This document shows positions 5,570 to 25,877 of a stretch of 64,000 nt of DNA, piece by piece (positions within the stretch are counted from its first letter, which is position 1; each line of letters starts with the position of its first letter). The notes under the pieces are model-generated. The model did not search any database. It was not told where the DNA came from and saw only the letters and a list, made by a program, of their open reading frames with translations. Source of the DNA: Desulfomarina profundi (lineage in GTDB: Bacteria; Desulfobacterota; Desulfobulbia; Desulfobulbales; Desulfocapsaceae); contig NZ_AP024086.1 of NCBI RefSeq assembly GCF_019703855.1, positions 4,174,501-4,238,500 on the forward strand. The letters run 5' to 3'. Made by a program: the position numbers and the translations under genes.

Positions 5570-7162
5570 ATGATTTCAGATAGTTCTACATTGCCGGATG
5601 ACCCTTCCGAACTCAAGAAAATCATCGTTGCGCTGGAACTGAAAAACCAGAAAAAGCAGGATGCTCTACAGCAGCAAATCGATATTTTACACGAAGAGCT
5701 GCGACTTGTTTATGCAAAGTTTTTCGGCCCCAAAAGTGAAGTATTCCGCGGCAAAAGTCCGCAGTTACCTCTTTTTGACATGCCGGAGCCCGATGATATT
5801 GAGAAAGAGTCTGAAGAACACGTTGAGATACCTGCTCATTCAAGGAAGAAGAAAGGGAGAAGGCCGCTGCCTGAGGAGCTGCCACGTATAGAGGTGGTTC
5901 ACGACATAGCTGATGAGGAAAAGACTTGCCAATGTGGTTCTCATCTGGTCAGAATTGGCGAGGAAGTTTGTGAAAAGCTCGATATCATCCCTGCTATCAT
6001 TCGTGTAATCAAACATATCAGACCAAAGTACAGTTGCAGATCATGTGAAGGCATAGAAGATGATGGAGCGACCGTCAAGATAGCACCTGTTCCGCGGCAG
6101 ATTATACCCAAAGGGATTGCAAGTGGTGGACTGCTTGCCCACATTCTCTGTGCCAAGTTTGAAGATGCTCTGCCGTTTTATCGTCAGGAGAAACAGTTTA
6201 CCCGCCTTGGGGTCGATCTGAATCGGGCGACCATGTGCAGCTGGGCCATGAAAGCTGCCCGGCAATGTTCACCTCTTCTTGAACTGCTGAAAAAAGATCT
6301 TCTTTCAGGACCTCTGATCAATGCCGATGAGACCACGGTTCAGGTCCTGGCTGAGCCTGGCCGTTCTCCAACAACGAAATCGTATATGTGGGTTTATCGT
6401 GGAGGTGTATCTTCTTCACCTGTCCTGCTCTACGAGTATCATCCTAGTCGTTCCGGGGATGTTGCAGCTGCGATGCTGAAGAACTATTCCGGCGCAGTAC
6501 AGACCGATGGGTATAAGGGATATAATTTTCTTGACACCCAGGATGAAGTTGTCCATCTCGGCTGCTGGGCTCATGCCAGAAGGAAATTTGTCGAGGCAGA
6601 CAGGGCCAGGCCCAAGAAAGCAAAGCCTGGCAGCACAACTATTGCGCTCAGGTTCATAAGAAACCTTTATAAGGTTGAGAAAGATGCAAACAGAAACGGC
6701 CTGGTAAAAAAAGAGTTGGTTGAATATCGCAAAACACATGCAGTTCCTATCCTGAGAGACTTTAAAAAATGGCTGGCAAAAAGATCTCTTAACACAACCC
6801 CTCAGAGCCTTCTTGGAAAAGCGATCTCCTATTGTCTGAGGCAGTGGGAAAGACTCGAGGCTTATATAGAGGTGGGAGACGCCACACCCGATAACAATCT
6901 GGCAGAAAATGCCATCCGCCCCTTTGTTGTAGGTAGGTAGAACTGGCTGTTTTCAGGAACACCAGACGGGGCAAAAGCAAGTGCTGCCATGTACTCGCTT
7001 ATCGAGACAGCCAAAGTGAATAATCTTGACGTATACAAATATCTTCGCTTTCTCTTTGAAAAGCTTCCCCTGGCCCAAAGCGAAGATGATTATAGAGAAC
7101 TGCTTCCAACTGTTGTTTCTGCAAAGGCAATGCTTCCTCTTCCAGGGATCAGTGCGGTTTAA
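5570..7162 (+). pseudogene. tnpC: IS66 transposase TnpC, interrupted by a nonsense codon
   Basis: The frame from the ATG at 5570 encodes a typical TnpC. It has an N-terminal coiled coil (ELKNQKKQDALQQQIDILHE), a leucine-rich segment (RLVYAKFFGPKSEVF), a zinc-binding region (CQCGSHLVRIGEE... SCRSCEG) and the DDE domain (LINADETTVQVL, AVQTDGYKGYN, DNNLAENAIRPF). A TAG at 6938-6940 replaces the Lys expected in VVGR-KNWLFSGT. The same frame then stays open for 73 more codons of normal C-terminal sequence to the TAA at 7160. All three catalytic acidic residues lie before the stop, but loss of the conserved C-terminus probably inactivates it. Unlike the other breaks in this window, this is a substitution, not a homopolymer indel. 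Confidence 0.88.
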
Positions 7163-7202
7163 TTAGCGCTTACATTGTTACAAATATGGCAGGAGGAAAA
7201 AT

Positions 7203-7508
7203 ATGAGTGTTCAACAGAGAAGAAAATACGATCCAGATTTTAAACGCAATGCGGTTCTATTGTCAGAAGAACCTGGGAAGGCAGTAACTGAAATAGCTGA
7301 CAACCTTGGTATCTCAAGAGATTTGCTTTACCGATGGAGAAGAGAATACAGAGCCAGAGAAAACTATTCTTTTTCAGGGAATGGCAGAGAGTCCCTGACA
7401 CCTCAGGATCAAAAAGTAAGAGATCTCGAAAAGAGGCTCAGGGATGCCGAGATGGAGCGGGATATATTAAAAAAAGCCATGGCCATCTTCAGCAGGACAC
7501 CGAAATGA
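7203..7508 (+). CDS. IS3-family OrfA (helix-turn-helix)
   Basis: The 101-residue protein has an N-terminal HTH (FKRNAVLLSEEPGKAVTEIA, LGISRDLLYRWRREY) and a C-terminal leucine-zipper segment (DLEKRLRDAEMERDILKKAM), as in IS3 OrfA proteins. AGGAGG precedes the ATG. A run of seven A (7469-7475), read A-AAA-AAA in this frame, lies where IS3 elements make a programmed -1 shift into orfB. The shifted frame is open from there into OrfB, so the OrfAB fusion transposase can be made. Confidence 0.9.
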   Translation: MSVQQRRKYDPDFKRNAVLLSEEPGKAVTEIADNLGISRDLLYRWRREYRARENYSFSGNGRESLTPQDQKVRDLEKRLRDAEMERDILKKAMAIFSRTPK

Positions 7509-8386
7509 TATTTAAGTTCATCAAGGAAAATCGCTCATCATTTCAGGTGAAGAAGATGTGCCATGTATTCAATGTCTCCCCGAGCGGTTATTATCGCTGG
7601 ATCAAGGCCCCTATCTCTACGAGGCAGATAGAAAAGGACCATTTGAAAAAACGTATACAAGAGCTGTTTGAGCAACACAACGGCATGGTCGGGAGTCCGA
7701 TTATCACTGCTGATCTTCACGATCAACCTGAGTTTTCAAATGTAAGCCGACAGCGTGTAGCTCGTATGATGAAGGAAATGGGTTTGAAATGCCGAACTGT
7801 AAAAAAGTTTGTTGTTACCACGGATTCAAAGCACACTGAGCCAGTGGCTCCCAATCTGTTGGACCGCAAGTTCACCGTGTCCTCCCCCGACTTGGTGTGG
7901 GTTACCGATATCACCTATCTGAAGATAGGCAGTAAATGGCACTATCTCACAGTTTTCATAGACCTGTTTTCTCGAATAGTTGTGGGTTGGGATCTCAGCG
8001 ATTCCCTTGAAAGACATTCTGCAATTAGGGCGCTAAACAAGGCCATATTGAGGAGACACCCTGGCCAGGGATTAATGGTTCATAGTGATCGTGGAGTTCA
8101 ATATGCAAGTAGCGATTTCAGAGCATTGCTGCAGAAACGAGGATTTGTTCAAAGCATGAGCAGAAAGGGAAACTGCTGGGACAACGCAGTAGCTGAATCG
8201 TTTTTCCATACTATTAAAACCCAAATGATTCATCACTGCACATTCCACAATGTGGCTGAGGCTGAGCAGACCTTATTCCATTACATCAAGGTCTACTACA
8301 ACCGACAAAGGAAACATTCTACAAACGAATATAAGGCTCCTGCTCAATATGAGTTGGAGTGGTGGGACGATAGAAAAGCGGCTTAA
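7505..8386 (+). CDS. IS3-family transposase OrfB
   Basis: This frame is -1 relative to OrfA. It contains an HTH_21 segment (CHVFNVSPSGYYRWIKAPIS) and an rve core with the DDE residues. They are Asp in LVWVTDITYL, Asp in LMVHSDRGVQYAS and Glu in DNAVAESFFHTIK, and the protein ends with the usual YYNRQRKHSTNEYKAPAQYE. The product is probably the OrfAB fusion made by frameshifting at 7469-7475. The internal ATG at 7505 overlaps the OrfA stop. The gene is complete and lies just before the right inverted repeat. The only defect of this IS3 is the IS66 in its leader. Confidence 0.9.
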   Translation: MIFKFIKENRSSFQVKKMCHVFNVSPSGYYRWIKAPISTRQIEKDHLKKRIQELFEQHNGMVGSPIITADLHDQPEFSNVSRQRVARMMKEMGLKCRTVKKFVVTTDSKHTEPVAPNLLDRKFTVSSPDLVWVTDITYLKIGSKWHYLTVFIDLFSRIVVGWDLSDSLERHSAIRALNKAILRRHPGQGLMVHSDRGVQYASSDFRALLQKRGFVQSMSRKGNCWDNAVAESFFHTIKTQMIHHCTFHNVAEAEQTLFHYIKVYYNRQRKHSTNEYKAPAQYELEWWDDRKAA

Positions 8387-8416
8387 CCGTGACTCCACTT
8401 TTTTGTGGCAAGATCA

Positions 8417-9398
8417 GCTTTACTCTGATCGTACTGCTGGGACCAACTCGAACTTCAAAACGAGTACATGTGTCGAGCTTACCCGAAGGCAGTGGACGCA
8501 ACATCGACTGTTCTTCTTGAAAGCGCTCCTGGCGGTTGCAGTTGAGTTGTGCAAACAGCTTCTGTAGAAATAACTCATATTCCTTGCGTGTAGTAAAATC
8601 CCGGTTACCTCGCAGCATCAGGGCCTGATCTACGGCTTTCTTGAAACGATGATGGCGCTGCTCAATGTCACCATTTTCGTGGGGGCTTGACGAATTTATT
8701 TTACGGCCTTGCAATTTGTAATGGGCCAAAAGCCCCTGGTAGCCACGGGTAAACTCTTCCGGGTTATCCGGTTTATTCACCGCAGCTGACAACCTGTCTG
8801 TTTGATGTTGTTCTGGAACTCCGCCAAGTTTCCATAGACTCTTCTGTAATCCTTCGCTCAGGCTTTCGAAACTCTCGGAAAAACAGATCGTTCCTGTCTC
8901 CCAGTTCGAATATGTCAGCACAAAATGGTAGATCAGGTGATCAAAAGGCTGACCACCAATACTGATCTGTAATTGGGACATATCTGTAAAATCAGACTGA
9001 CTCAACCGTGCAGGCACATGCACCTGGGGAAAATAAACTTCACGTCCTGGACCTTCTGTACAACGCCAGGTTTTTACTCGACGTTGAAACGTGCGGAGCT
9101 GGCCATCTCCAAAAGAACCGGGATAAATCCTTTGAAAATGGGTAAAAAGAGTTTTGGCTTCCAAACCTTCATTAGTTTCCAGAAATTGTAAAACCTCTGG
9201 CCATATACCTTCAAAAGGATCTTTACGAGTTCGCCACTCCCTCACTCGCTCCGCACTGATCTCACTTGGCAATTTGCCATTATCTCTATACTTGCGACCG
9301 GTTTTCTCATCCATGCCGGCTCTAGCCGCTGCTACTTCCAACGTCTTCCCTTGACTTAAGTATTTCTTCAATTTCCTCACCTGAATATCTGTGACCAT
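8417..9398 (-). pseudogene. istA: IS21-type transposase IstA, 3'-truncated by IS3
   Basis: From the ATG at 9398 (GGAGG upstream) the frame encodes an N-terminal HTH (LSQGKTLEVAAARAGMDEKT). An rve core follows with Asp in LSQSDFTDMSQL, Asp in EQHQTDRLSAAV and Glu in HENGDIEQRH. The native sequence ends at about FEVRVGPSSTIRVK. After that the frame reads into the IS3 inverted repeat and stops at 8319 with unrelated residues. Roughly the last quarter of IstA and all of istB are lost. It is non-functional. Confidence 0.85.
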
Positions 9399-9491
9399 CC
9401 ATATTCCTCCTTTGAGAAATATGAATAATCTGATCACAATTTTCCGGGAAATTTAATTGTCGTCAAAAGGAATTATAATTGTCGCTGGTCA
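8417..9491 (-). mobile_element. IS21-family remnant
   Basis: The reverse strand carries the left end and most of istA. Beyond the gene, the sequence near 9450-9491 (reverse) begins TGACCAGCGACAATTATAAT and repeats CGACAATTA, as in the multiple terminal repeats of IS21 ends. The other end, including istB, is missing where the IS3 right repeat abuts at 8416. Confidence 0.7.
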
Positions 9492-9823
9492 TATTCAGTG
9501 GTAATCTCTGCCAGCACCTTACGGACGGTTTTTTTTGTCTTCTTGCCCAGACGGCTTCAGTTTGGATATTGTTTTTTCAGTTGTTTTCGGACAAGGATCC
9601 TGATATTCTTGTGATGAATAAAAGCCTTTGTTATGTTTGAATTTTCCTTGAGCAGAATTTTTCAACATTACAGAGGCTTTTATGCTTTATCTCACTGTTT
9701 TTACACGGTGATTATTTACTCTTTTCAACATCTTTTTTACAACTTATTCTACTTTTTTATCAATATGCTGAATTCTCCGGAGATTTAGAAAAACAAACCC
9801 GGATACGACTGATGGAGGTACAT
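9492..9823. other. Non-coding stretch with one long hairpin
   Basis: There is no convincing gene. ATAAAAGCCTTTGT (9618-9631) and ACAGAGGCTTTTAT (9670-9683) form a 14-bp inverted repeat with one mismatch around a 38-nt loop, possibly a small palindromic repeat or the end of a lost element. The sequence is AT-rich towards 9780. Confidence 0.5.
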
Positions 9824-10003
9824 ATGTCGGAAAAACAGATTCTATATTATATCAAAAATGAAAGTAACAGTGAACTGCTCTACCTTGTTGCCGTGACCTG
9901 CCTGGAGAGAATGGCAGATATCGGTAAAGTTGCGGGAGTGAAAGCGGTGCTTGATGCCGGCACCAATATTCTTTACAATATGATTAAAAAAGACAGAGAA
10001 TAG
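9824..10003 (+). CDS. Small protein of unknown function (59 aa)
   Basis: From the ATG at 9824, preceded by GGAGG, 59 residues are encoded: a charged start (MSEKQILYYIKNESNSELL) followed by helical sequence (LYLVAVTCLERMADIGKVAG). The alternative ATG at 9812 overlaps the ribosome site and is less likely. I do not recognise a family. It lies alone between the IS remnants and the flavodoxin operon, with no obvious partner. Confidence 0.5.
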   Translation: MSEKQILYYIKNESNSELLYLVAVTCLERMADIGKVAGVKAVLDAGTNILYNMIKKDRE

Positions 10004-10353
10004 CCTGCATTTCTAATCATTTCTGGCTGTGTCAGGTCCAAAGTCCCGGAGTCTGCGCGTACTTTACATGGTTCCTGTCCGGAAATGGAATTTTTCCTGT
10101 TCCCTGACCTCGAAGAAAAGTCAAATTTTTCAAGGTACCCCATAAACGATAACGCCGTAGTTTTTTACAATCTTCGCCAAATCTCCGGCAAAAACTACTG
10201 CTGATTTATCCGTGTCAGGAGTCAGTTTTTATACTGAGCATATGCACATAAATAGTCTTTGCAATTTTTGCCAAACTGGAAATAAAGAACACAATTAAAG
10301 TCTTTAATTTAAAACAGGTCTGGATGTTTATGATGGCTGTTACGTTGGGAGAA

Positions 10354-10364
10354 GTAACGTTACC
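10354..10364. promoter_or_regulatory. Candidate activator-binding site GTAACGTTACC
   Basis: The palindromic GTAACGTTAC lies about 140 bp upstream of the sigma-54-type promoter at 10504, with a related half-site TGTTACG at 10339. The same half-sites occur in front of the divergent regulator gene (13227-13247) and at 16204. The distance fits an upstream activating sequence for an enhancer-binding protein. Binding is inferred. Confidence 0.5.
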
Positions 10365-10503
10365 ATGATAAAGATATTGGAAGCAGTACTGGGGGGTCTT
10401 TTGGAACTATCTGTAAAGATTGAAAATATTATTATAAACTTTACTGGCACTGAATTTGAATAAGAAATTTTGGTTTTTTGTTGAAAACAGTGGTGAATGT
10501 CCT

Positions 10504-10519
10504 TGGGTTTTCGGTTGCA
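10504..10519 (+). promoter_or_regulatory. Sigma-54 promoter candidate
   Basis: TGGGTTTTCGGTTGCA has the TGG and TTGCA blocks of a -24/-12 promoter at the correct spacing (TGG-N8-TTGCA). The start of transcription would fall near 10530, 24 nt before the ATG of the flavodoxin gene. The rest of 10004-10503 contains no gene that I can support. Confidence 0.65.
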
Positions 10520-10553
10520 AGGATTTTGATGATTAACAGCTGGGAGAAATACT

Positions 10554-11039
10554 ATGAAATCATTGATTATTTATTCAAGTAAAACAGGAAATACAAGAAA
10601 ACTTGCCGAAGCAGTCTGTGATTTCCTGCCAGGCGAAACAATTGTGAAACCGGCAATGGATAACCCGAGCCAGGAAGGATATGATCTTGTTGTCATCTGC
10701 TTCTGGCTGCAGGGAGGTAAACCGGACCCGAATTCAGCTAAAGTCCTGGAAAAGTCCACTGGTAAAATTTTTCTACTGGCTACCCATGGGGCCGCGGCAG
10801 ATTCGGTGCATGCCGCTGGCGCTATGGCTGCTGCAAGAGAGTTGGCCGGCAGTGCTGACGTTGTTGGGGAATTTAACTGCCAGGGAGAGGTGAATCCTGA
10901 TTTTCTGAAGAAAGCGGCGGCAAAAAAACCACAACCTCCCTGGGTTCAGGATGCGGCAGATGCTGTAGGACACCCAGATGCAAATGATATTGCCGAGCTG
11001 AAAAAGGTTCTTCTGGAAGCTGTGTCATCAATATCATAG
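10554..11039 (+). CDS. Flavodoxin family protein
   Basis: This 161-residue protein begins MKSLIIYSSKTGNTRKLAEA. The SSKTGNT loop is the FMN-phosphate-binding motif of flavodoxins. The next segment (GYDLVVICFWLQGGKPDPNS) and LLATHGAAADSVHA fit the other two FMN loops. It is a cytoplasmic one- or two-electron carrier. The length fits a single-domain flavodoxin. GGGAG precedes the ATG. It is the first gene behind a sigma-54 promoter and is followed after 103 nt by a DUF1638 gene. The redox partner is not identifiable from sequence. Confidence 0.8.
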   Translation: MKSLIIYSSKTGNTRKLAEAVCDFLPGETIVKPAMDNPSQEGYDLVVICFWLQGGKPDPNSAKVLEKSTGKIFLLATHGAAADSVHAAGAMAAARELAGSADVVGEFNCQGEVNPDFLKKAAAKKPQPPWVQDAADAVGHPDANDIAELKKVLLEAVSSIS

Positions 11040-11142
11040 TATGGAAAATCATAAGGCACCCATAAATTAAATTGTATTTTCAATATATTATTTAATAGAA
11101 GACATAAAACTGTCATGGATTCCCGGCAACAAGGAGAATACA

Positions 11143-11796
11143 ATGGAGTCAGTAACTTTTGAAGATATTGCAATCGTTTCCTGTGGGACGATGAGCCTGG
11201 AACTGAATTTTCTCCAGGATGAAGGGTTTTTGAATGCTGCCGAGATAATCTATACTACCCCCGGCCTTCATCAGGATATTCTTGAACTCGAACGGCAGCT
11301 TGTTAGCAGGATCGCAAAAGCAAGGGAAAAGCATGATAAAGTCATAATCGTATATGGTGGTAAATTCTGCTATGTCAATGTGGATGAACCAACACGGTTG
11401 ATGGAAACCATTATCGACGAACAGGGCAGTGGGATTGGTAGAATTGGGGCCACACATTGTATGGATATGCTTGTCAGTGAACAAGATCGGCAAAAGATTG
11501 CAGCGGAGGTTGCCGGGGGAGAGCCGGTCTGGTGGATGACGCCCGGCTGGGTGAAATACCGCTCGAAAGTATTCAAAGGCTGGGACAAGGCTGTGGCCAA
11601 TGAGAATTTTCCCCGGCACACGGGTGGGGCCATTGTCCTTGACGGGACAGGATACATGGATAAAATGATGGCGGAAAATCCGGAAGAGTTTCTTGACTAT
11701 GGTGACTGGATGGGAATTCCACTCATTCCCTATACCATTACTCTTGACCGTTTTAAAACGCTTCTCGCGGATGAGGCGGTGAAACTGGCCGGTTGA
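11143..11796 (+). CDS. DUF1638 domain protein
   Basis: The 217-residue protein matches DUF1638 in overall pattern: IVSCGTMSLELNFL at the start, VIIVYGGKFCYVNV in the middle, RIGATHCMDML, and a C-terminal GDWMGIPLIPYTITL. Genes of this family are often found with corrinoid methyltransferases and their activators, but no function is established. Conserved Cys and His (CGT, YGGKFC, GATHC) could bind a metal. AAGGAG precedes the ATG. It ends 10 nt from the convergent regulator gene. With the flavodoxin gene it forms the probable target operon of that regulator. Confidence 0.75.
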   Translation: MESVTFEDIAIVSCGTMSLELNFLQDEGFLNAAEIIYTTPGLHQDILELERQLVSRIAKAREKHDKVIIVYGGKFCYVNVDEPTRLMETIIDEQGSGIGRIGATHCMDMLVSEQDRQKIAAEVAGGEPVWWMTPGWVKYRSKVFKGWDKAVANENFPRHTGGAIVLDGTGYMDKMMAENPEEFLDYGDWMGIPLIPYTITLDRFKTLLADEAVKLAG

Positions 11797-16289: not shown

Positions 16290-17167
16290 ATGACCGCAGC
16301 ACATCAAAACCCCAATTCCGCAGACAACCATATTCTTATAGCTGAAATCGATCCTCCCAAAGGTGCAAATCTGAATAGCTTTCTTGATTCGGCCTTGAAA
16401 GTGAGGGGACGTGTCGATGCTGTCAGGGTTACGGACAGTGAGCACGCGATCATGCGTATGTCCCCCTTGCGCCATGCCTGGCCCTTATTGACAGAGAGAT
16501 TGACCCGATCATGGTTATCAGTGGCAGGGATCGTAACAGGATATCGTTTCAGGCGGATCTGCTGACGGCGGCAGCAATGGGCATTAATAAGATTGTGATC
16601 AAGGAAGGGCATGACCCGGCTGAGGGTGATCAGCCTGTTGCCAGAACCAGTGGCGACCTCGACCTGATTACCATGCTGCAGTGTGTAACGGCTCTGAACG
16701 GGGGCAGGGACTTGGCGGGGGAAGAACTGGACGGCGCCACAGATTTTGAAATTGGTGTCTGCATGGAGCTTTCAGATGATGTGAATTATAACCGGGAGCG
16801 GGCGGAGTTTTTCATGCGGCTGGAAGACTACGGTGTAAGATCTGTCACCCTTGGTCCCACCTATGACCTGAATGTGATCGAACAGTTTGTTCCTTTTGCG
16901 GAAAAAACGGGGATTAAGCTCTTTTCTTCCCTGATGTTTTTAAAATCCGTAACTATGATCAGGTATCTCAATAACCTGCCTGGGGTTCCTTCAATTCCCC
17001 AGGAATTTCTCAAAAAAATGATGCAGGCACCGGTCAAGAAGGATGCGGGGATGCAGGTGGCGGCTGATTTCCTTGCAGAGTTATCCGCTTTCGGTGACGG
17101 TGTGGTGTTGCTTGCTATAGGCTGGAGGGAAAGATTACCGGAATTTCTTGATCTAATCGGTCGGTAA
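16290..17167 (+). CDS. MetF-like (methylene-THF reductase family) protein, frameshifted in this sequence
   Basis: CAGGAGG precedes the ATG. The first frame gives ILIAEIDPPKGANLNSFLDS and RVDAVRVTDSEHAIMRMSP. One base later the second frame gives APCLALIDREIDPIMVISGR and DRNRISFQADLLTAAAMGIN. The two join as one MetF-type TIM barrel of about 292 residues if a C run at 16462-16466 had six C instead of five. It is more divergent than the metF at 24951, and the FAD-binding stretch (GHDPAEGDQ in place of GDHQKFGDD) is altered. It is probably a paralogue with a changed or accessory role in the Hdr-MetVF system. It lies 6 nt upstream of the kinase gene. I regard the frameshift as probably artefactual. 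Confidence 0.7.
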
Positions 17168-17172
17168 TCTCA

Positions 17173-18716
17173 GTGGAAACGCTTTCCGTTCAATCAACAG
17201 CAGACAGGCCGGAAGAAGAAATTGCCCGGAAACTGGGACCGTATCACTATCTCTATACAATTCTGGAAGAGACTCCCAACGGGGTAGTTGTGATTGGCCT
17301 GAACCATCGGATAGTTCATGCGAATCCTGCTGCAAGACGATTTCTTGACATTCCTGACAAGGCGTTTGAAGGATTGACGCTGCAGGAAGTTCTCGGTCAG
17401 AATAATCGTACTCTTCTCAACGTCATCCTCGAAGCGTTTGCCGCTCCACCCGGGAAGTTCAAAAAAATACGGCACGAAATGGAGGTGACGGAAAACGGTG
17501 AACGATCCATCCTTGATGCGGTAATCGTTTATCCTCCGGCATCCCCTGATTATTATCTGCTTTATCTTATTGATATTACACAGCAGAAAAAACTGGAAGG
17601 GGAGCTGCGCCGCAGAAACGCCTTTTTCCATAATCTCATTGATTCTTCGGTGGACGGTATTATTGCCGCGGATATGAAGGGTAATATCATGCTCTTCAAC
17701 AAGGGAGCCCAGGAACTGCTCGGTTACGATGAACAGACAAGCCTGCAGTTGCATGTGACCGGTCTGTACCGGGAAGGGGCGCTTATGAACTGATTAAACG
17801 AATGCGCAGTGATGATTGCGGGGGAAAAGGGCGACTGCTTCGCCATAAACTGGCGGTAAAACACAAGGATGGTCATGATATCCCGGTTTCCTTTTCCGGC
17901 GGAATCATTTACGACCAGGATCAGGAAATTGCCACCTTCGGCCTGTTTACTGATCTTCGCGCGCTTAAACAGATAGAGGAAGATCTCGAGCAGACCCATA
18001 ATATGCTGATGCAGTCGGAGAAAATGGCAGGATTGGGCCGTCTGGCGGCCGGCGTAGCCCATGAGATCAACAACCCCATGTCCGGAATCATGCTCTATGC
18101 CAACCTGATCCAGGAAGAACTGGGAGATGATCATCACCTGAATGAGGATCTTCAGACCATCATCCGCGAAGCGGAGCGCTGCAAAGTCATTGTCGCTGAT
18201 CTGCTGGAATTTTCCCATCAGACAAACTACGAGATGAATCCGGTGGCTCTGAACGATGTGATACATAAGACCATCACAGTGCTGCAGCACCAGCCGATTT
18301 TTCATAATATTGAAGTCATTATGGAGCTGGAAGAAAACCTTCCCGCCATTTATGGCAACTCCATTCGCCTGAATCAGGTAGTGATGAATATCATCGTCAA
18401 TGGTGCCCAGGCCATGGAAGGTAACGGGAAACTGCATATTCTCAGCAGGTGCAGGGCCAATCATGATATCAACGAAATCAGGATCAGCGATTCAGGGCCG
18501 GGAATTCCCGATGATCTGCTGGAGAAAATATTTGATCCATTTTTTACCACAAAGGCCACGGGGGAAGGAACCGGACTGGGACTCTCTGTTTCCTACGCTA
18601 TTGTCAAGGAACATAAAGGGAGTATCCGGGTCAATTCTTCACCGGAGTCCGGAACGACCTTTATTCTTCGCTTTCCCGTTGTCATGGACACACTGACTGG
18701 AGAAAACAATGACTGA
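17173..18716 (+). CDS. PAS-PAS sensor histidine kinase, frameshifted in this sequence
   Basis: The gene starts at a GTG. Residues about 25-140 are a PAS domain (GVVVIGLNHRIVHANPAARR) and a second PAS follows (DGIIAADMKGNIMLFNKGAQ). The frame then breaks at a run of four G (17776-17779). Adding one G continues with AYELIKRMRS and the rest of the kinase. The H-box is GVAHEINNPMSGI. ATP-binding boxes are visible as NIIVNGAQAM, DSGPGIPDDLLEKIFDPFFT and GTGLGLSVSYAIVKEH. The repaired length is about 514 residues. It is cytoplasmic, as no membrane helix is seen. Its 3' end overlaps hdrC by 8 nt, so the kinase is co-expressed with the electron-transfer complex. The response regulators at 25932 and 26465 are plausible partners. 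Confidence 0.82.
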
Positions 18717-19272
18717 TACCATCATTTGCCCGGAGGATCGGAACAGGAAATTTCTCGAAAAACTCGGCAGGAGAGGGATTGACGTCCAGGCCTGCTTCCA
18801 GTGCGGGCGTTGCTCCGCAGGGTGTCCCGTTGGTGAGTTTTTTGATCTCAATGTTATGGAAGTGGTCAGGCTTGCCTCATATGGTATGGAGGAGCCTTTG
18901 CTTAACTGTCATACAATCTGGCTCTGTGCCGCATGCGAGACATGTGCCACCCGATGCCCCAACGACATTGAAATTGCGGGACTGATGGATGTGATTCGGG
19001 AAATTGCCCTGAGAAAAGGTATAAAACCGGCTGAACCCCGGGTGCCGATTTTTCATAAATCTTTTCTGAAATCCATCAGTAAATGGGGACGGGCCTATGA
19101 GATCGGTATGATCGGCGGGTATAAACTGAGTTCGGGAGACCTTTTTGGTGATATGAAGCTCGGTCTGAACATGTTTTTAAAGGGAAAACTGAAGCTGACT
19201 CCCCATTCAATCGAGGGAAAATCTGAAATCAGGCAGATATTTTCCGGCAAGGGAAAGGAGTATGACAGATGA
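18709..19272 (+). CDS. hdrC: Heterodisulfide reductase subunit C-like ferredoxin
   Basis: The 187-residue protein has two complete [4Fe-4S] motifs, CFQCGRCSAGCPV (about residue 26) and CAACETCATRCP (about residue 68), as in HdrC. The segment NCHTIWLCAACETCATRCPN is typical of the family. It passes electrons between HdrA and HdrB. Length fits HdrC. Its start overlaps the kinase gene, and its stop overlaps hdrB by 4 nt (ATGA). No membrane segment is present, so the complex is soluble. Confidence 0.9.
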   Translation: MTDTIICPEDRNRKFLEKLGRRGIDVQACFQCGRCSAGCPVGEFFDLNVMEVVRLASYGMEEPLLNCHTIWLCAACETCATRCPNDIEIAGLMDVIREIALRKGIKPAEPRVPIFHKSFLKSISKWGRAYEIGMIGGYKLSSGDLFGDMKLGLNMFLKGKLKLTPHSIEGKSEIRQIFSGKGKEYDR

Positions 19273-20129
19273 AACTCTCATATTATCCAGGCTGTTCCCT
19301 TGAAGGAACGGCACTTGACTACGATCAGTCGGTAAGGGAACTCTGCAGTCGACTTGATATTGAGCTGGTTGATATTTTTGACTGGAATTGCTGTGGAGCC
19401 TCGTCTGCCCATATGACAGACCATGAGGTGGGGATACGTTTGCCCATGCGCAACATGATGCTGGCAGCAGAAGCGGGACACGATATCCTCGTACCTTGTG
19501 CCGCCTGTTTTCAGCGACTGCGTGCGGCGGACATTGAGATGCGGACACGACCGGAATATTGGGATCTGTCGGAATACGCACCGGATATCAAAATTATTCA
19601 TATCAGTTCTTTTCTGGCTGCACCGGACACCCTGGAACGAATCAGGGAAAAGGTAACAAGGCCCCTGGATGGATTGCAGGTTGCCTGTTATTACGGTTGT
19701 CTTTCCCTGCGTCACCCCCATGTTACCGGGGCTGAAAACTGGGAGATGCCGGTCAATCTGGAGAAAATTGTTGAAGCTGTTGGAGCCACAGCTGTCAAAT
19801 GGTCCCATCGTACCGAATGCTGTTCCGGCAGCCTGACCATGGCCCGGCCCGATATTGCGAGAAAACTGGTGAGCGATATCGCGGACAGTGCCCGTCGGGG
19901 AGGGGCCACGGCTATGGTGACAGACTGTCCCATGTGTCAGGCTAATGTGGAGAGTCGACAGCTTGACCTGGGAACAGGCAATGAGCTGCCGGTATTTTTC
20001 GGGACTGAATTGATAATGGCGGCCCTTTCCGGAGAGTATCCGAAGAAACAGCAGAAGGTTCATCTTGTTTCTCCAGATCCGCTTACTGCCTGTTTTTCCG
20101 AACAGTTACCCGTGGAGGATTCCCCATGA
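19269..20129 (+). CDS. hdrB: Heterodisulfide reductase subunit B-like protein
   Basis: The 286-residue protein has two CCG domains. The first shows CSLEG near the N-terminus, WNCCGASSAH and CAACF. The second shows YYGC, TECCSGS and CPMC. In methanogen HdrB these hold two non-cubane [4Fe-4S] clusters that reduce the heterodisulfide. In bacteria such as Moorella, HdrB within MetFV-HdrABC-MvhD has an unknown acceptor. Both sets of Cys are present here. It overlaps hdrC and hdrA by 4 nt each, so expression is tightly coupled. Confidence 0.9.
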   Translation: MKLSYYPGCSLEGTALDYDQSVRELCSRLDIELVDIFDWNCCGASSAHMTDHEVGIRLPMRNMMLAAEAGHDILVPCAACFQRLRAADIEMRTRPEYWDLSEYAPDIKIIHISSFLAAPDTLERIREKVTRPLDGLQVACYYGCLSLRHPHVTGAENWEMPVNLEKIVEAVGATAVKWSHRTECCSGSLTMARPDIARKLVSDIADSARRGGATAMVTDCPMCQANVESRQLDLGTGNELPVFFGTELIMAALSGEYPKKQQKVHLVSPDPLTACFSEQLPVEDSP

Positions 20130-23100
20130 CGACAAATGTGAACACTCCTGAAAATAATACTTCCCCCAAAACAGGGGCGGTTATGGTCATCGGCGGCGGT
20201 ATCAGCGGGATGCAGTCGGCCCTGGATCTGGCCAATGCGGGTATCAAGGTTTACCTTGTTGAGAGTTCTCCCGCCATCGGCGGTAAAATGGCTCAGCTTG
20301 ACAAAACTTTTCCCACCAATGACTGCTCCATGTGTATCGTCTCTCCCAAGCTGGTGGAGGTTGGGCGTCATAAAAATATTGAGTTGTTCACCCATAGCGA
20401 GGTGAGAGATTTTTCAGGGGAGCCGGGAAGTTTTACAGCTACAGTAGTCAGTCATGCCCGTTATGTGGATGTTGAAGCCTGTACCGGTTGTGGCTTGTGC
20501 GAGCTTGTCTGTCCCGTAACCCATCAGTCATATTTTCCGAAAAAAAAGGATGACGGACCAAAGGAGAAACGGGCGAAGGAAAAGCGCCTTGTCCAGGGTG
20601 CGGAGATACCCCGCCCGTCTTCTTCACTGAAGTGGACCTTCACCGTTGATAACGATACGTGTTCCGCCTGTGGTCTTTGTTTTCGTGCCTGTCTCCATGG
20701 GGCGATAATCTGGCGGAAAAAGGAGAAGGCGGAAATTATTCAGGATAAGTGTACCGGCTGCGGTGCCTGTTTTTCGGCCTGTCCCGACAAATTTCAGGCA
20801 ATCACGGTAAGCAATGCACCTGAACTGGAGAAATCTGTCGGCGCGGCTGTCCATGAGCGTTCCCTGGCCATAACCAAGGAACTGAACGGCGAGGAAAAAA
20901 ATCATTGTATCCGCTGCGGACTCTGTGTCATCACCTGTAAAAAAGTCATGGGGATCGGTGCCCTTAAAATGGTGGAGGAAGGTATCGAGGTTCGGGCTGA
21001 TCTCTGTCAGGTTTGCGGTGCCTGTGTCTCGGTTTGTCCCGTTGATTTTCTTGAAATTGATGCGGTTGCGGGCAGAAAGCCGCGGCCACTGTTGAATCTG
21101 TTCAACGAGGGGCTGGATGGCCGAAAACCGGTAAATATCCACTATCCCCAGGCCGTACCCAGGGTTCCCACTATTGATGAGTCAAGCTGTGTCAGGTTGA
21201 ACAGCGGCGCCTGCGGTACCTGTCAGTCCATCTGTGGTGTTGGCGCAATCCATTACGACCATGTGGAAAAGGAAACGGAGATTCATATCGGATCAGTTAT
21301 CTTCTCTCCGGGTATTGAGGTCTTTGATGCTGAGAGGCGGGGAGAGTTCGGTTATGGAATGTATAAGAATGTGGTGACCTCAATTGAGTTTGAGCGTCTT
21401 CTGTCCGCCTCCGGACCGACTTCGGGAGCTGTTCTGCGGCCGGGAGACGGCAGACATCCCAAAAAGATCGCCTGGATCCAGTGTGTCGGCTCCAGAGACC
21501 ATTCCTGTGATCGCGATTACTGCTCCTCCGTCTGTTGCATGTACGCAACCAAGGAGGCGTTTATTGCCAGAGAGCATGATTCCAATATCGAGCCGACGAT
21601 ATTTTATATCGACATGCGCTCCTTCGGCAAAAATTTTGACGACTATGTGACCAGGGTGAAGGATCACAATGTCCGTTTCGTCCGGGCTATGGTCAGCAGG
21701 GTTTTTGAAGATCCGGTGACTGGCGACCTTGAGTTGCGCTATGTGGATGAGTCCGGAAAGAGGCAGAGCGAGACCTTTGACATGGTGGTTCTCTCGGTTG
21801 GCCTGCAGGTCGCGAAATCGACCAAATCGCTTGCGGACAGGCTGGAAATAGAGCTGGATCGCTACGGTTTTGCCGTGACGGATCACTACAGTCCCCTTGC
21901 TACCTCAAGACCGGGAATTTTTGTGAGCGGGGCTATTAACGGTCCCAAGGATATTCCCGAAACCGTCTCCGAAGCGTCCGCCGCGGCTGAAGCGGCTTCC
22001 GCGGATCTGGCAGAGGCCAGGGGTAGTCTTATTACTGCCGAGGTTCTGCCGGAGGAGCGTAAGGTTGAGGATGGAGAAGAGCTGCGTATCGGTGTCTTTA
22101 TCTGCCACTGCGGTACTAATATCGCGTCGGTGGTGGATGTGGAGGCGGTAATGGAATATGCTTCCACTCTGCCGGGAGTGGTTTACGTGGACAAACCTCT
22201 TTATACCTGCTCCCAGGATTCCCAGGAGCGGATGAAGGATATTATCCGGGAACATCGTCTGAATCGGGTGGTTACTTCAGCCTGTTCACCTACAACCCAT
22301 GAACCTCTTTTTCAATCCACCCTGCAGGCGGCGGGTATCAATAAATATTTCTTTGAAATGGCCAATATCCGTGACCAGTGCAGCTGGGTACATCCCCTGG
22401 AACCCGAACTGGCCACGGAAAAATCAAAAAGACTTACCCGTATGGCGGTGGCAAACGCGGCCGCAGGAAAAGCACTGGAGGAAATGGAATTTGATGTGGA
22501 TGACCGTCTGCTCATTGTCGGTGGCGGCATTGCCGGTATGACTGCGGCCCTTGAGGCGGCCCGGCAGGGTTTCGGGGTCTGGCTGGTGGAGAGAAGTGCC
22601 GAGCTGGGTGGACATCTCCTCAACCTGCGGCGCACAGGCGATGGGCGGTTGTTTGCGGATTATCTGGATGAGCTGAAAGCGGCCCTCGAGGCCGATGAAC
22701 GAATCAGGATCTTTACCTCCAGTGAGGTGGTTGAACAGTCCGGGTTTGTCGGTTCATTTGAGACGGAGATCATGACACCATCCGGAGCGACACGGACCGT
22801 TCAGCATGGCGCCATTCTGGTGGCCACCGGAGCTGAGGAATTTCGACCTGAACTTCATGGGCTTGACAGTGTGGAAACTGTCATGACCCAGGCAGATTTT
22901 GAGAGGCGGCTGGAAGAGAGCGGAGAAGACTGGCAAAAGAAAAAAATCGTCATGCTGCAATGTGCCGGTTCCAGGGATGAAGAATATCTACCCTACTGTT
23001 CGAGAGTATGCTGTAACCAGGCAGTAAAAAACAGTCTGCGTTTTGTTGAAAAATATCCCCAGGCAAGAGTCGATATCCTATACAGGGATATGCGTTGTTA

Positions 23101-23749
23101 CGGTATTGGTGAGGAAGAATATCGTCGAGCGCGAATGGCAGGAGTGAATTTCATTCGCTACGATCCAGAGAACAATCTCCCTGAAATCAAGGCTGAAGAG
23201 AGCGGAGTCGAAGTGAGGCTGATCGATCCGTCCATCAGGATGGGTGTGAAGCTGCAGGCGGACTTTCTGGTTCTCTCCACCGGAATGGTACCCAGGGATA
23301 CCGAGGAACTGGCATCCATGCTCAGGGTTCCCCGCAGCGACAGCGGTTTTTTTATTGAGGCGCATGCCAAGCTGCGTCCGGTTGATCTGCCGGGAGAGGG
23401 ATTGTTTATGGCAGGTACCGTCCACGGACCCAAGAGCTCTTCGGAGGCTATCGCCCAGGCACAGGCCGCTGTTGCCAGAGTGGCGACCATTCTTTCCAGG
23501 GACAGCCTGAAAATGTCCGGCGTGGTTTCATGGGTGGATCCGACAAACTGTGCTGTTTGTCTGACCTGTGTACGGGCATGTCCTTATGGTGTGCCTTTTA
23601 TCAACGATGAACACAGCGCGGAGATTAATCCGGCACTTTGCCAGGGGTGCGGGATCTGTGTCGCTGAATGTCCGGCCAAAACAATTTCTCTTGGGCGGTT
23701 CGAAGATCGTAATATTGAAGCCAAGATAGAGTCATACTGTGAGACCTGA
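20126..23749 (+). CDS. hdrA: Very large HdrA: two flavin modules with many ferredoxin clusters
   Basis: The protein has 1207 residues, clearly longer than a single HdrA of about 650. Module 1 has the FAD fold MVIGGGISGMQSALDLANAG and DCSMCIVSPKLVEVGRH. Then come [4Fe-4S] motifs CTGCGLCELVCPV, CSACGLCFRACLHG, CTGCGACFSACPD, CIRCGLCVITCKK and CQVCGACVSVCPV, and a CGTCQSICG site. Module 2 (from about residue 655) has VFICHCGTNIASVVDVEAV and a second FAD fold IVGGGIAGMTAALEAARQGF. It ends with CAVCLTCVRACP and CQGCGICVAECPA. The flavin in HdrA is the electron-bifurcating centre in known complexes. Here two nucleotide folds suggest a fused HdrA-HdrA' arrangement. It lies in an operon with mvhD and metVF. 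Confidence 0.9.
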   Translation: MTTNVNTPENNTSPKTGAVMVIGGGISGMQSALDLANAGIKVYLVESSPAIGGKMAQLDKTFPTNDCSMCIVSPKLVEVGRHKNIELFTHSEVRDFSGEPGSFTATVVSHARYVDVEACTGCGLCELVCPVTHQSYFPKKKDDGPKEKRAKEKRLVQGAEIPRPSSSLKWTFTVDNDTCSACGLCFRACLHGAIIWRKKEKAEIIQDKCTGCGACFSACPDKFQAITVSNAPELEKSVGAAVHERSLAITKELNGEEKNHCIRCGLCVITCKKVMGIGALKMVEEGIEVRADLCQVCGACVSVCPVDFLEIDAVAGRKPRPLLNLFNEGLDGRKPVNIHYPQAVPRVPTIDESSCVRLNSGACGTCQSICGVGAIHYDHVEKETEIHIGSVIFSPGIEVFDAERRGEFGYGMYKNVVTSIEFERLLSASGPTSGAVLRPGDGRHPKKIAWIQCVGSRDHSCDRDYCSSVCCMYATKEAFIAREHDSNIEPTIFYIDMRSFGKNFDDYVTRVKDHNVRFVRAMVSRVFEDPVTGDLELRYVDESGKRQSETFDMVVLSVGLQVAKSTKSLADRLEIELDRYGFAVTDHYSPLATSRPGIFVSGAINGPKDIPETVSEASAAAEAASADLAEARGSLITAEVLPEERKVEDGEELRIGVFICHCGTNIASVVDVEAVMEYASTLPGVVYVDKPLYTCSQDSQERMKDIIREHRLNRVVTSACSPTTHEPLFQSTLQAAGINKYFFEMANIRDQCSWVHPLEPELATEKSKRLTRMAVANAAAGKALEEMEFDVDDRLLIVGGGIAGMTAALEAARQGFGVWLVERSAELGGHLLNLRRTGDGRLFADYLDELKAALEADERIRIFTSSEVVEQSGFVGSFETEIMTPSGATRTVQHGAILVATGAEEFRPELHGLDSVETVMTQADFERRLEESGEDWQKKKIVMLQCAGSRDEEYLPYCSRVCCNQAVKNSLRFVEKYPQARVDILYRDMRCYGIGEEEYRRARMAGVNFIRYDPENNLPEIKAEESGVEVRLIDPSIRMGVKLQADFLVLSTGMVPRDTEELASMLRVPRSDSGFFIEAHAKLRPVDLPGEGLFMAGTVHGPKSSSEAIAQAQAAVARVATILSRDSLKMSGVVSWVDPTNCAVCLTCVRACPYGVPFINDEHSAEINPALCQGCGICVAECPAKTISLGRFEDRNIEAKIESYCET

Positions 23750-23833
23750 TAAAATTGCCGTATTTCCAGGTTGGCTGAGTTGCATGGGTAATTAAAAAAA
23801 ATAGAAAAAAGAATTCAGGAGAGGAGTGGAATA

Positions 23834-24289
23834 ATGAGTGACTTTGCAGCCCGTGTCATTGTTTTTGCCTGTCGTCATTGAGCATATTCCGCAGCGGACC
23901 TGGCAGGTTCGGAAAGACGGACCTATCCTCCGGCGATCAGTATAATCATGTTGCCCTGCACCGGCAGGATAGATGAGGCGCTGCTCTTGAAAGCGTTTGA
24001 GAATGGAGCGGACGGAGTAATGGTGGTTGGTTGCCTGGAAGGGGACTGCCATTACGTGAACGGCAATATCCGGGCCCGTGCCCGGGTCAAACGGGTTTAC
24101 GGGATTCTGGAGCAAATCAATATAGGCCCTGAACGGGTCAGGATGTACAACCTGAGTGCCGGTGAAGGATCGAAGTTTGCAGCCTACGCCAACGAATTTG
24201 TGGATAAGATAGAAGAACTTGGGCCAAGCCCGATCAATGTGGCAAGAGAGGGAAATCCCGATGCCGCATCACAGGAGGAGGCAGGATGA
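23834..24289 (+). CDS. mvhD: MvhD-type hydrogenase/Hdr iron-sulfur subunit, selenoprotein
   Basis: From the ATG at 23834 (GAGGAG upstream) the frame reads MSDFAARVIVFACRH, then TGA (23879-23881), then AYSAADLAG and on to RRTYPPAISIIMLPCTGRID. MvhD proteins have C-x2-C at the point where this one has C-R-H-stop. A selenocysteine for the second Cys is therefore expected, and the frame is open for 136 codons after it. Later family Cys are present in MLPCTGR and GCLEGDCHYVNG. The protein (about 151 residues, one [2Fe-2S]) connects HdrA to its electron donor, here the MetVF pair. A hairpin just after the UGA can serve as SECIS. The stop overlaps metV by 4 nt. Confidence 0.88.
23879..23914 (+). promoter_or_regulatory. 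UGA codon and candidate bacterial SECIS hairpin
   Basis: Five nt after the TGA, TTCCG (23887-23891) pairs with CGGAA (23910-23914). Inside, ACCT (23898-23901) pairs with AGGT (23905-23908) around a GGC loop. Position and the G-containing apical loop fit a SelB-binding element. An RNA-folding check would be needed to settle the internal bulge. Confidence 0.6.
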
Positions 24290-24951
24290 TAACAGGAACA
24301 CCGAAGCCCATTGAAGAAATTCTGGAAATGGTTGAGCCCTATGACAAGATCGTCGTCGCGGGATGTCACGGCTGTGTCACGGTCTGTCGGGTCGGCGGGG
24401 AGAAGGAGGTGCAGGTGCTGGCATCCACCCTGCGACTGGCAAGGGAGTCGAGTGGCAGAAAAATCGAGATTAAAGAGGTGAGCCTGGAGAGGCAATGTGA
24501 TCCGGAATATGTGGAATTGATGCGGCCCTATGTAGAGGAATATCAGGCTGTTCTTTCCATTGCCTGCGGGGCCGGAATCCAGTTTCTCGCGGAGAAATAC
24601 ACAACGACTCCCCTGTTACCGGGTATCAACACCGGGTTTCTCGGAGTTACCGAACGCCAGGGGGAATGGGCGGAAAGATGCCAGGGGTGCGGAGATTGCG
24701 TACTCCACCTGACTGGTGGTATCTGTCCGGTAACCAGGTGTGCAAAATCGTTGTTTCATGGGCCATGTGGTGGTTCGGTACGGGGGATCTGTGAAATAGA
24801 CAAGGAAGTCAAGTGCGGCTGGCAGCTTATTATTGACAGGTTGAAATCCCTGGATCAGATGGAGAATTACGGGAAACTGAAGCCTTACAAGGGATGGAAT
24901 ACGTCAAGGGATGGTGGCCCGCGCCGCATTATCAGGGAGGACATGATCTGA
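24286..24951 (+). CDS. metV: MetV, zinc-containing partner of methylene-THF reductase
   Basis: The 221-residue protein shows the MetV pattern: VVAGCHGCVTVCRVGGEKEV near the start, SIACGAGIQFLAEKY in the middle, then a Cys-rich C-terminal region CQGCGDCVLHLTGGICPVTR and CAKSLFHGPCGGSVRG. In acetogens MetV binds [4Fe-4S] clusters and zinc and carries electrons to MetF. Its ATG overlaps the mvhD stop, and its TGA shares one base with the metF ATG at 24951. Together with hdrABC-mvhD it reproduces the gene set of the Moorella MetFV-HdrABC-MvhD complex. Confidence 0.88.
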   Translation: MITGTPKPIEEILEMVEPYDKIVVAGCHGCVTVCRVGGEKEVQVLASTLRLARESSGRKIEIKEVSLERQCDPEYVELMRPYVEEYQAVLSIACGAGIQFLAEKYTTTPLLPGINTGFLGVTERQGEWAERCQGCGDCVLHLTGGICPVTRCAKSLFHGPCGGSVRGICEIDKEVKCGWQLIIDRLKSLDQMENYGKLKPYKGWNTSRDGGPRRIIREDMI

Positions 24952-25877
24952 TGAATACGGAAAGTAACCTGAAAAAAGTATTGGAAGCGGGTCATTTTTC
25001 GGTCACTGCTGAGTGTGGCCCTCCCCGTGGAGCCGATCCGGAGATCGTTCGGAAAAAAGCAGCCCTTGTGGTCGGCAATGTGGATGCCTGCAATGTGACC
25101 GATAATCAGACTGCGGTAGTGCGCATGAGTTCACTGGCCGGCTGCATGCTGATCAAGGAACAGGGAATTGATCCTCTTATTCAGATGGTGGTGCGGGACA
25201 GGAATCGCATTGCCCTTCAGTCGGATCTTCTTGGTGCGTCCGCCCTCGGTGTGAGAAACCTTCTCTGCCTGTCAGGGGATCACCAGAAATTCGGGGATGA
25301 TCCCCAGGCAAAAAATGTTTTTGATATTGATTCAATGCAGTTAATACATCTGGCGAAGACAATGAGGGACGAAGGGGTTTTTCCATCCGGAGACAAACTT
25401 GAAGGCGCACCGCAGTTTTATATCGGTTGTGCAGTCAATCCTTTTGCTGATCCTTTTGAGATTCGGGTACCGCGCCTGAAAATGAAGATGGAGGCGGGGG
25501 CTGATTTTGTCCAGACCCAGTGTATTTATAATATGGATAAATTTAAAACGTATATGGAGGATGCAAAAAAAGAAGGACTGCATGAAAAAATAAAAATCCT
25601 TGCGGGAGTGACTCCCCTGAAATCGGCGGGTATGGCGAAGTTCATGCGACGTATGGTTGCCGGTATGGATATCCCCGATGAGGTGGTCAATCGTATCGCC
25701 GATGAGCCTAAGGAAAAACAGGCCGCCAAGGGTATCGAGATGTGCATCGAACAGATCCAGGAATTAAAGGAGATGGAAGGTATAGCCGGTGTCCATGTCA
25801 TGGCGATTGAGTGGGAGGAAAAACTGGAAGAAATTATTGGCGGGGCGGGTCTGCTGCCCAGGCCGAAAGTTGATTGA
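24951..25877 (+). CDS. metF: 5,10-methylene-tetrahydrofolate reductase
   Basis: The ATG at 24951 follows a GGGAGG site. The 308-residue TIM barrel shows FSVTAECGPPRGADPEIVRK with the catalytic Glu of the first strand. Next come DRNRIALQSDLLGASALGVR, the FAD/NAD region LCLSGDHQKFGDDPQAKNV, and GADFVQTQCIYNMDKF. It interconverts methylene- and methyl-THF in the Wood-Ljungdahl pathway. In a complete oxidiser it would run in the oxidative direction. It is the last gene of the hdr-met set. A longer frame starting upstream at 24894 lies inside metV and is rejected. Confidence 0.92.
   Translation: MNTESNLKKVLEAGHFSVTAECGPPRGADPEIVRKKAALVVGNVDACNVTDNQTAVVRMSSLAGCMLIKEQGIDPLIQMVVRDRNRIALQSDLLGASALGVRNLLCLSGDHQKFGDDPQAKNVFDIDSMQLIHLAKTMRDEGVFPSGDKLEGAPQFYIGCAVNPFADPFEIRVPRLKMKMEAGADFVQTQCIYNMDKFKTYMEDAKKEGLHEKIKILAGVTPLKSAGMAKFMRRMVAGMDIPDEVVNRIADEPKEKQAAKGIEMCIEQIQELKEMEGIAGVHVMAIEWEEKLEEIIGGAGLLPRPKVD

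Follow-up and report, generated by a model that had tools for sequence, protein, structure and literature searches.

A predicted selenocysteine at codon 16 of mvhD in a metVF-linked gene cluster of Desulfomarina profundi

The closest described counterparts of the gene cluster studied here are the Hdr-type methylenetetrahydrofolate reductases HdrCBA–MvhD–MetVF of Moorella and Sporomusa, which are encoded by the same types of genes. In Sporomusa ovata the genes for HdrCBA and MvhD lie directly upstream of metV and metF (PMC9430772, PMC6085437) and pull-downs tie MvhD to HdrB, HdrA and MetF (PMC9430772). The [2Fe-2S] cluster of MvhD is described as passing electrons to the flavin of HdrA (PMC12350162, PMC6019823); in the available portions of the MvhD literature we found no statement of which cysteines ligate this cluster. 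The string 'selen' does not occur in the main text of PMC9430772 on the Hdr-type enzyme, whereas the MvhD described here is a predicted selenoprotein.

Selenocysteine (Sec)-containing MvhD with the motif CxxU is itself already known. The family table of PMC13188914 has an entry for Sec-MvhD/VhuD with this motif and two Sec, and the Sec-containing MvhD/VhuD/FrhD family (PF02662) outlined in the accessible part of that paper is like ours in family, in-frame UGA and CxxU motif. Multiple Sec residues are reported there for some archaeal FrhD and VhuD, whereas the proteins compared below mostly carry one Sec, at either site 16 or site 67, and those loci that carry an organism name are bacterial. 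Sec-containing MvhD is on record in sulfate reducers, as is predicted here: Desulfobacterium autotrophicum HRM2 has four (mvhD1, 2, 3 and 5), with mvhD genes adjoining hdrA/hdrL (PMC2702500), and Desulfococcus multivorans has one (PMC5109826). In the available text of these two papers the position of Sec in the proteins concerned is not given, nor is a link to MetVF. A Sec-containing methyl-viologen-reducing hydrogenase is also recorded for marine Deltaproteobacteria (PMC8318568).

The window, by which we mean the whole stretch of 64,000 nucleotides that was analysed, contains contiguous hdrC, hdrB, hdrA, mvhD, metV and metF genes at 18709–25877, where the names HdrA, HdrB and HdrC rest on NCBIfam matches below cut-off. 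We read the mvhD gene as encoding a Sec-containing subunit of an Hdr-type methylenetetrahydrofolate reductase, in which the UGA at codon 16 would be decoded through SelB and tRNA-Sec together with a downstream hairpin, and on the sequence evidence we put the probability of this reading at about 0.95. The features of the locus are as follows.

18709–19272, + strand: hdrC-like gene (TIGR03290, E = 3.3e-21, below its cut-off)
19269–20129, + strand: hdrB-like gene with CCG domains (PF02754, E = 4.7e-18; TIGR03288, E = 1.7e-31, and NF042965, E = 1.1e-36, both below cut-off)
20126–23749, + strand: hdrA-like gene, 1207 aa (NF040770, E = 3.1e-286, below its cut-off)
23817–23826, + strand: purine-rich, ribosome-binding-like stretch AGGAGAGGAG upstream of ATG 23834, picked out by eye
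23834–24289, + strand: mvhD/flpD gene with the UGA read through, predicted selenoprotein (Sec16) of 151 residues (translation, PF02662, relatives)
23879–23881, + strand: UGA codon predicted to encode Sec, the second residue of the motif C13-x2-U16 (sequence; Cys at the aligned position of paralogues and of PDB chain 5odc_D)
23895–23911, + strand: candidate bacterial SECIS core, 7 bp stem CGGACCT/AGGTTCG with a GGC loop (codon freezing, hairpin rules)
24286–24951, + strand: metV-like gene (PF12225, methylene-tetrahydrofolate reductase C terminal, E = 1.8e-33)
24894–25877, + strand: metF-like gene (PF02219, E = 9.9e-41)

Two further window genes look frameshifted. In a MetF-like gene at 16290–17167 what we read as MetF-like sequence is lost from the frame of 16290 at about 16470 and taken up again in the frame from 16511; the latter part matches PF02219 just under the cut-off (E = 5.6e-5), while the 5' fragment alone has no Pfam match. 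A PAS/histidine kinase at 17173–18716 is split into ORFs 17173–17793 and 17802–18716 in different frames. The assembly may therefore contain indels, or these genes may be decaying.

The mvhD frame opens with ATG at 23834 and closes with the TGA of 24287–24289; its single internal TGA is that of codon 16, around which read-through translation gives ...VFACRH-U-AYSAADLAG.... The original prediction of a selenoprotein MvhD counted 136 open codons after the UGA, which holds if the stop is included; the exact figure is 135 sense codons and the stop. When U is replaced by Cys, residues 8–130 cover positions 1–123 of the 123 in the Pfam profile PF02662 (FlpD; E = 5.3e-48) and score 162.5 bits against a curated cut-off of 22.3, which places the protein in the FlpD/MvhD family. 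The match to NF045873 (VhuD) lies below its curated cut-off (138.5 bits against 215), and the gene is for this reason not filed as VhuD proper. The conserved family cysteines Cys13, Cys42, Cys67 and Cys72 are all present alongside Sec at site 16 (row CUCCC of the alignment, L107), and the protein aligns from its first residue with 5odc_D (methyl-viologen reducing hydrogenase subunit D), where site 16 is Cys. Alignment with the paralogues, 5odc_D and PF02662 confirms the placement of the in-frame UGA at the second Cys of the N-terminal C-x2-C of MvhD, giving the motif CxxU. Mechanical gene calling truncates this subunit at its N-terminus and removes its first CxxC: just as anticipated, the table-11 ORF listing starts at 23948 with an ORF of 113 aa that has lost residues 1–38, including Cys13 and residue 16.

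Every locus used for comparison was retrieved through its similarity to the window protein or to the family of that protein. In the related loci, which are the best 80 of 101 confirmed and come from 76 assemblies, site 16 is UGA in 78 and Cys in two, and Cys13, Cys42, Cys67 and Cys72 are kept in all 80; one peptide pattern behind this selection requires Cys67, so that site-16 forms are favoured in it. Isolates with the gene include Desulforhopalus singaporensis DSM 12130 (L044) and Desulfofustis glycolicus DSM 9705 (L053). A sense codon other than Cys or Sec at this site in sister strains, which would have spoken against the prediction, does not occur among these loci. Within the genus, UGA stands at site 16 in all seven genomes searched, including that of the window (the gene of G002 is partial, with 75 residues). 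The paralogue set comprises 80 stretches chosen among the matches listed, five of them from the window's own genome. Counting duplicates, the retrieved loci contain 215 FlpD domain rows, in which site 16 is U in 118, C in 95 and D in two; both Asp rows stem from a single distant paralogue of the window's own genome that lies in two overlapping loci.

The distinct FlpD domains number 186 by protein and 188 by DNA. Sites 16 and 67 of the 186 are U/C in 95, C/C in 46, C/U in 40, U/U in four and D/C in one, and no UGA is found elsewhere within these domains. Since 135 of the 139 distinct Sec domains carry a single Sec, at one site or the other, and only four carry both, the two Sec sites of MvhD are almost mutually exclusive within the sampled domains. 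The four distinct double-Sec proteins (L198, L199, L202 and L203, with L173 being the same gene as L203) each have a Sec-containing HdrA motif (NDCAIU) upstream, and MetV or MetF was found downstream of none of them.

We call an MvhD gene MetVF-linked if a match to the window MetV or MetF lies on the same strand at most 3.5 kb downstream. This holds for 94 of the 95 Sec16/Cys67 genes, 24 of the 40 Sec67 genes, 23 of the 46 all-Cys genes and none of the four double-Sec genes. The lone exception in the first class (L131) has only 224 nt of sequence downstream; Sec16/Cys67 genes are thus always MetVF-linked where this can be tested. Some HdrA proteins have NDCSMU where the window HdrA-like protein has NDCSMC. 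A strict coupling of Sec16 to an HdrA Sec was considered and rejected: upstream of the 94 MetVF-linked Sec16 genes the HdrA motif has Cys in 61 and Sec in seven, and was not found in 26.

The genome of the window itself holds six FlpD domains, namely Sec16 (window), Sec67 twice (L021 and L024), all-Cys (L022), Asp16 (L025) and a divergent one (L026). Three of its MvhD genes are MetVF-linked: the Sec16 gene of the window, a Sec67 gene (L138) and an all-Cys gene (L137). An own-genome Sec67 MvhD (L139) follows an HdrA-like stretch with an in-frame UGA of its own and precedes a PF01058 (Oxidored_q6) protein. On the minus strand of this locus, the read-through ORF 5968–9642 is HdrA-like, has its in-frame UGA at NDCSMU and runs on into the Sec67 MvhD. 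The read-through ORF 9759–11324, also on the minus strand, contains a UGA in LLLPEUGHAY and encodes what we take to be an HdrC/HdrD-like protein. Both ORFs likely encode further selenoproteins. Tandem mvhD copies are seen elsewhere: in L080 an all-Cys copy comes after a Sec16 copy, and L154 and L158 each have two Sec16 copies.

MvhD would be the small [2Fe-2S] electron-transfer subunit of HdrCBA–MvhD–MetVF and, by analogy with the MvhD systems cited above, should pass electrons between HdrA and MetVF. Sec16 would take the place of one CxxC cysteine, either in the cluster or adjacent to it. For its chemical role there is a serious alternative, to which we give not quite even odds, namely that Sec16 is no cluster ligand and forms with Cys13 a redox-active CxxU (selenenylsulfide) pair. 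The listing of CxxU as the family motif (PMC13188914) is in line with such a pair, as is a description of the family with four conserved cysteines (PMC5736913), and the Asp16 paralogue keeps Cys13, Cys42, Cys67 and Cys72, which makes four Cys even without site 16. Against it stands the Sec of the Sec67 paralogues, 24 of the 40 with MetVF neighbours: site 67 lies outside the CxxC, and a metal-site role shared by the two Sec positions fits at least as well as a redox pair. We offer a wider picture more tentatively. Selenium in MetVF-linked MvhD would occupy either Cys position 16 or Cys position 67, with a separate SECIS for each, and would thereby create natural Fe–Se-ligated [2Fe-2S] clusters that might adjust how electrons enter a bifurcating or confurcating complex; the organism would run three MetVF-linked clusters side by side, one with Sec16, one with Sec67 and one with all-Cys MvhD.

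Whatever the role of the residue, its insertion would be helped by a short hairpin within the coding sequence. The stem CGGACCT/AGGTTCG starts 13 nt after the UGA, its GGC loop follows at 20 nt and the core has a folding energy of −6.9 kcal/mol. The original prediction had the GGC loop right and gave the start of the hairpin loosely, as 5 nt after the UGA, where only a weak TTC/GAA extension identified by eye could start. In the bacterial SECIS model of PMC13188914 (Fig. 2A) the loop has 3–9 nt with a G in its first two positions and lies 16–37 nt from the UGA, the stem has 4–16 bp and the MFE is at or below −7.5 kcal/mol. The 3 nt loop, 7 bp stem and 20 nt distance seen here fall within these rules, and the GGC loop at offset 20 is the best hairpin by the published loop rules in 92 of 95 Sec16 genes. 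Hairpins of at least 4 bp that obey the loop rules are also present at this place in 38 of 40 Sec67 genes and in 33 of 48 all-Cys ones, where loop and offset usually differ.

Energy is of little help. The window hairpin has −8.7 kcal/mol for 40 nt against −6.9 for the core alone, and the −7.5 kcal/mol threshold is non-discriminating: applied to the MFE of 45 nt it is passed by 94 of 95 Sec16, 40 of 40 Sec67 and 41 of 48 all-Cys genes, and as an uninterrupted-stem test by only two of 95 Sec16 genes. For three stretches compared with shuffled sequences z is −1.18, −0.44 and −0.51, with 25, 62 and 57 of 200 shuffles folding equally well or better. We consequently rejected thermodynamic folding as evidence for a SECIS, the z-scores not being significant and the MFE failing to separate Sec from Cys genes. 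An Rfam search at gathering scores gave no match. In a codon-bias scan of the window for further Sec codons, the mvhD UGA fell outside the 15 best of 254 UGA; these 15 were read as mostly antisense shadows, and the scan was set aside.

The discriminating signal lies in codon usage. In the 95 Sec16 genes, whose pairwise amino-acid identities are 0.45–0.99, codons 21–25 are frozen to GCG GAC CTG GCA GGT, with synonymous diversities of 0.10, 0, 0, 0 and 0.04, the five lowest of 51 degenerate codons (median 0.55); the compared genes are related, so that codon counts are not independent and shared states may reflect few events. The same codons have diversities of 0.43–0.73 in Sec67 and all-Cys genes, codon 23 not being scorable in the latter. 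GCGGACCTGGCAGGTTC followed by G or C is found in 87 of the 95 Sec16 genes, and at the position of GCGGACCTGGCAGGTTC the 88 Sec67 and all-Cys genes have 81 different 18-mers. This nucleotide-level constraint tied to the UGA supports a putative SECIS at codons 21–25, which folding energy alone does not. In the 40 Sec67 genes the freezing follows codon 67 instead, where the lowest diversities among 37 codons are those of codons 73, 75 and 78. Codons 74 and 77 covary in all 40 (TTC–GGA in 24, TAC–GGT in 16), which is what pairing between them in a hairpin at about codons 73–78 would produce; this pairing was drawn by eye. A conserved element of its own accompanies each Sec site of MvhD.

Sites 16 and 67 were masked for a quick tree (184 rows, 129 columns, two very long branches), which excluded identical rows as well as domains shorter than 110 codons, L131 and L143 among them. 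A group of 144 rows (SH-aLRT 100) unites 94 Sec16, 24 Sec67 and 26 all-Cys genes, and the five site classes need 11 changes on the tree, where four is the least possible and shuffling gives a mean of 78.1. Of the five frozen codons, the Cys genes nested within Sec16 groups retain three in L080:5010, two in L144, one in L145 and none in L142, which sits on a long branch. The Cys gene L143 differs from the Sec16 consensus over codons 21–26 by one synonymous change, CTG to CTC, a near-intact element such as a recent Sec-to-Cys change would give.

The machinery for Sec decoding is encoded in the genome (4,307,339 bases, one contig). The original prediction expected selA, selB, selC and selD, with absence of selB or selC counting against it, and all four were found. 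In profile searches SelB scores 364.5 bits against a cut-off of 242.25, with 12 other matches under the cut-off, and SelA 634.6 bits against 267.9. The tRNA-Sec scores 74.9 bits against a gathering score of 47 and is likewise called by ARAGORN as tRNA-SeC with anticodon tca. Two SelD proteins are above the cut-off (L018 and L019), each with one in-frame UGA near the N-terminus. An open frame beyond the UGA would equally be seen if this codon were read as an ordinary amino acid such as Trp, or by general read-through without SelB. We regard this as very improbable, because the genome encodes SelB, SelA and tRNA-Sec, close relatives without UGA have Cys here and not Trp (C 95 and D 2 over all rows), the mvhD gene itself terminates in TGA and the frozen stretch after the UGA occurs only in UGA genes. 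Still less credible is a sequencing error or true nonsense mutation, leaving a pseudogene or a start at 23948: the 113 aa ORF and possible assembly indels noted above would suit it, but the recurrence of UGA at this codon in 78 of the related loci (best 80 of 101; 76 assemblies) argues strongly against it, and the residues upstream of the UGA are kept in the Sec16 genes (Phe11 in 92 of 95, Cys13 in 95 of 95), with synonymous variation in their codons.

The frame, the machinery genes and the conservation together support the prediction that this MvhD is a selenoprotein. In the open-licence literature as available, supplements aside, we did not find the partition of Sec between two sites, an element for each site or the link of Sec16 to MetVF; their absence from print is not thereby established. 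Two Sec sites, each with a frozen element, together with Cys genes in which such an element has decayed, provide a clean comparative case for what a bacterial SECIS needs, and the same case bears on the role of selenium in the Fe–S electron carrier MvhD.
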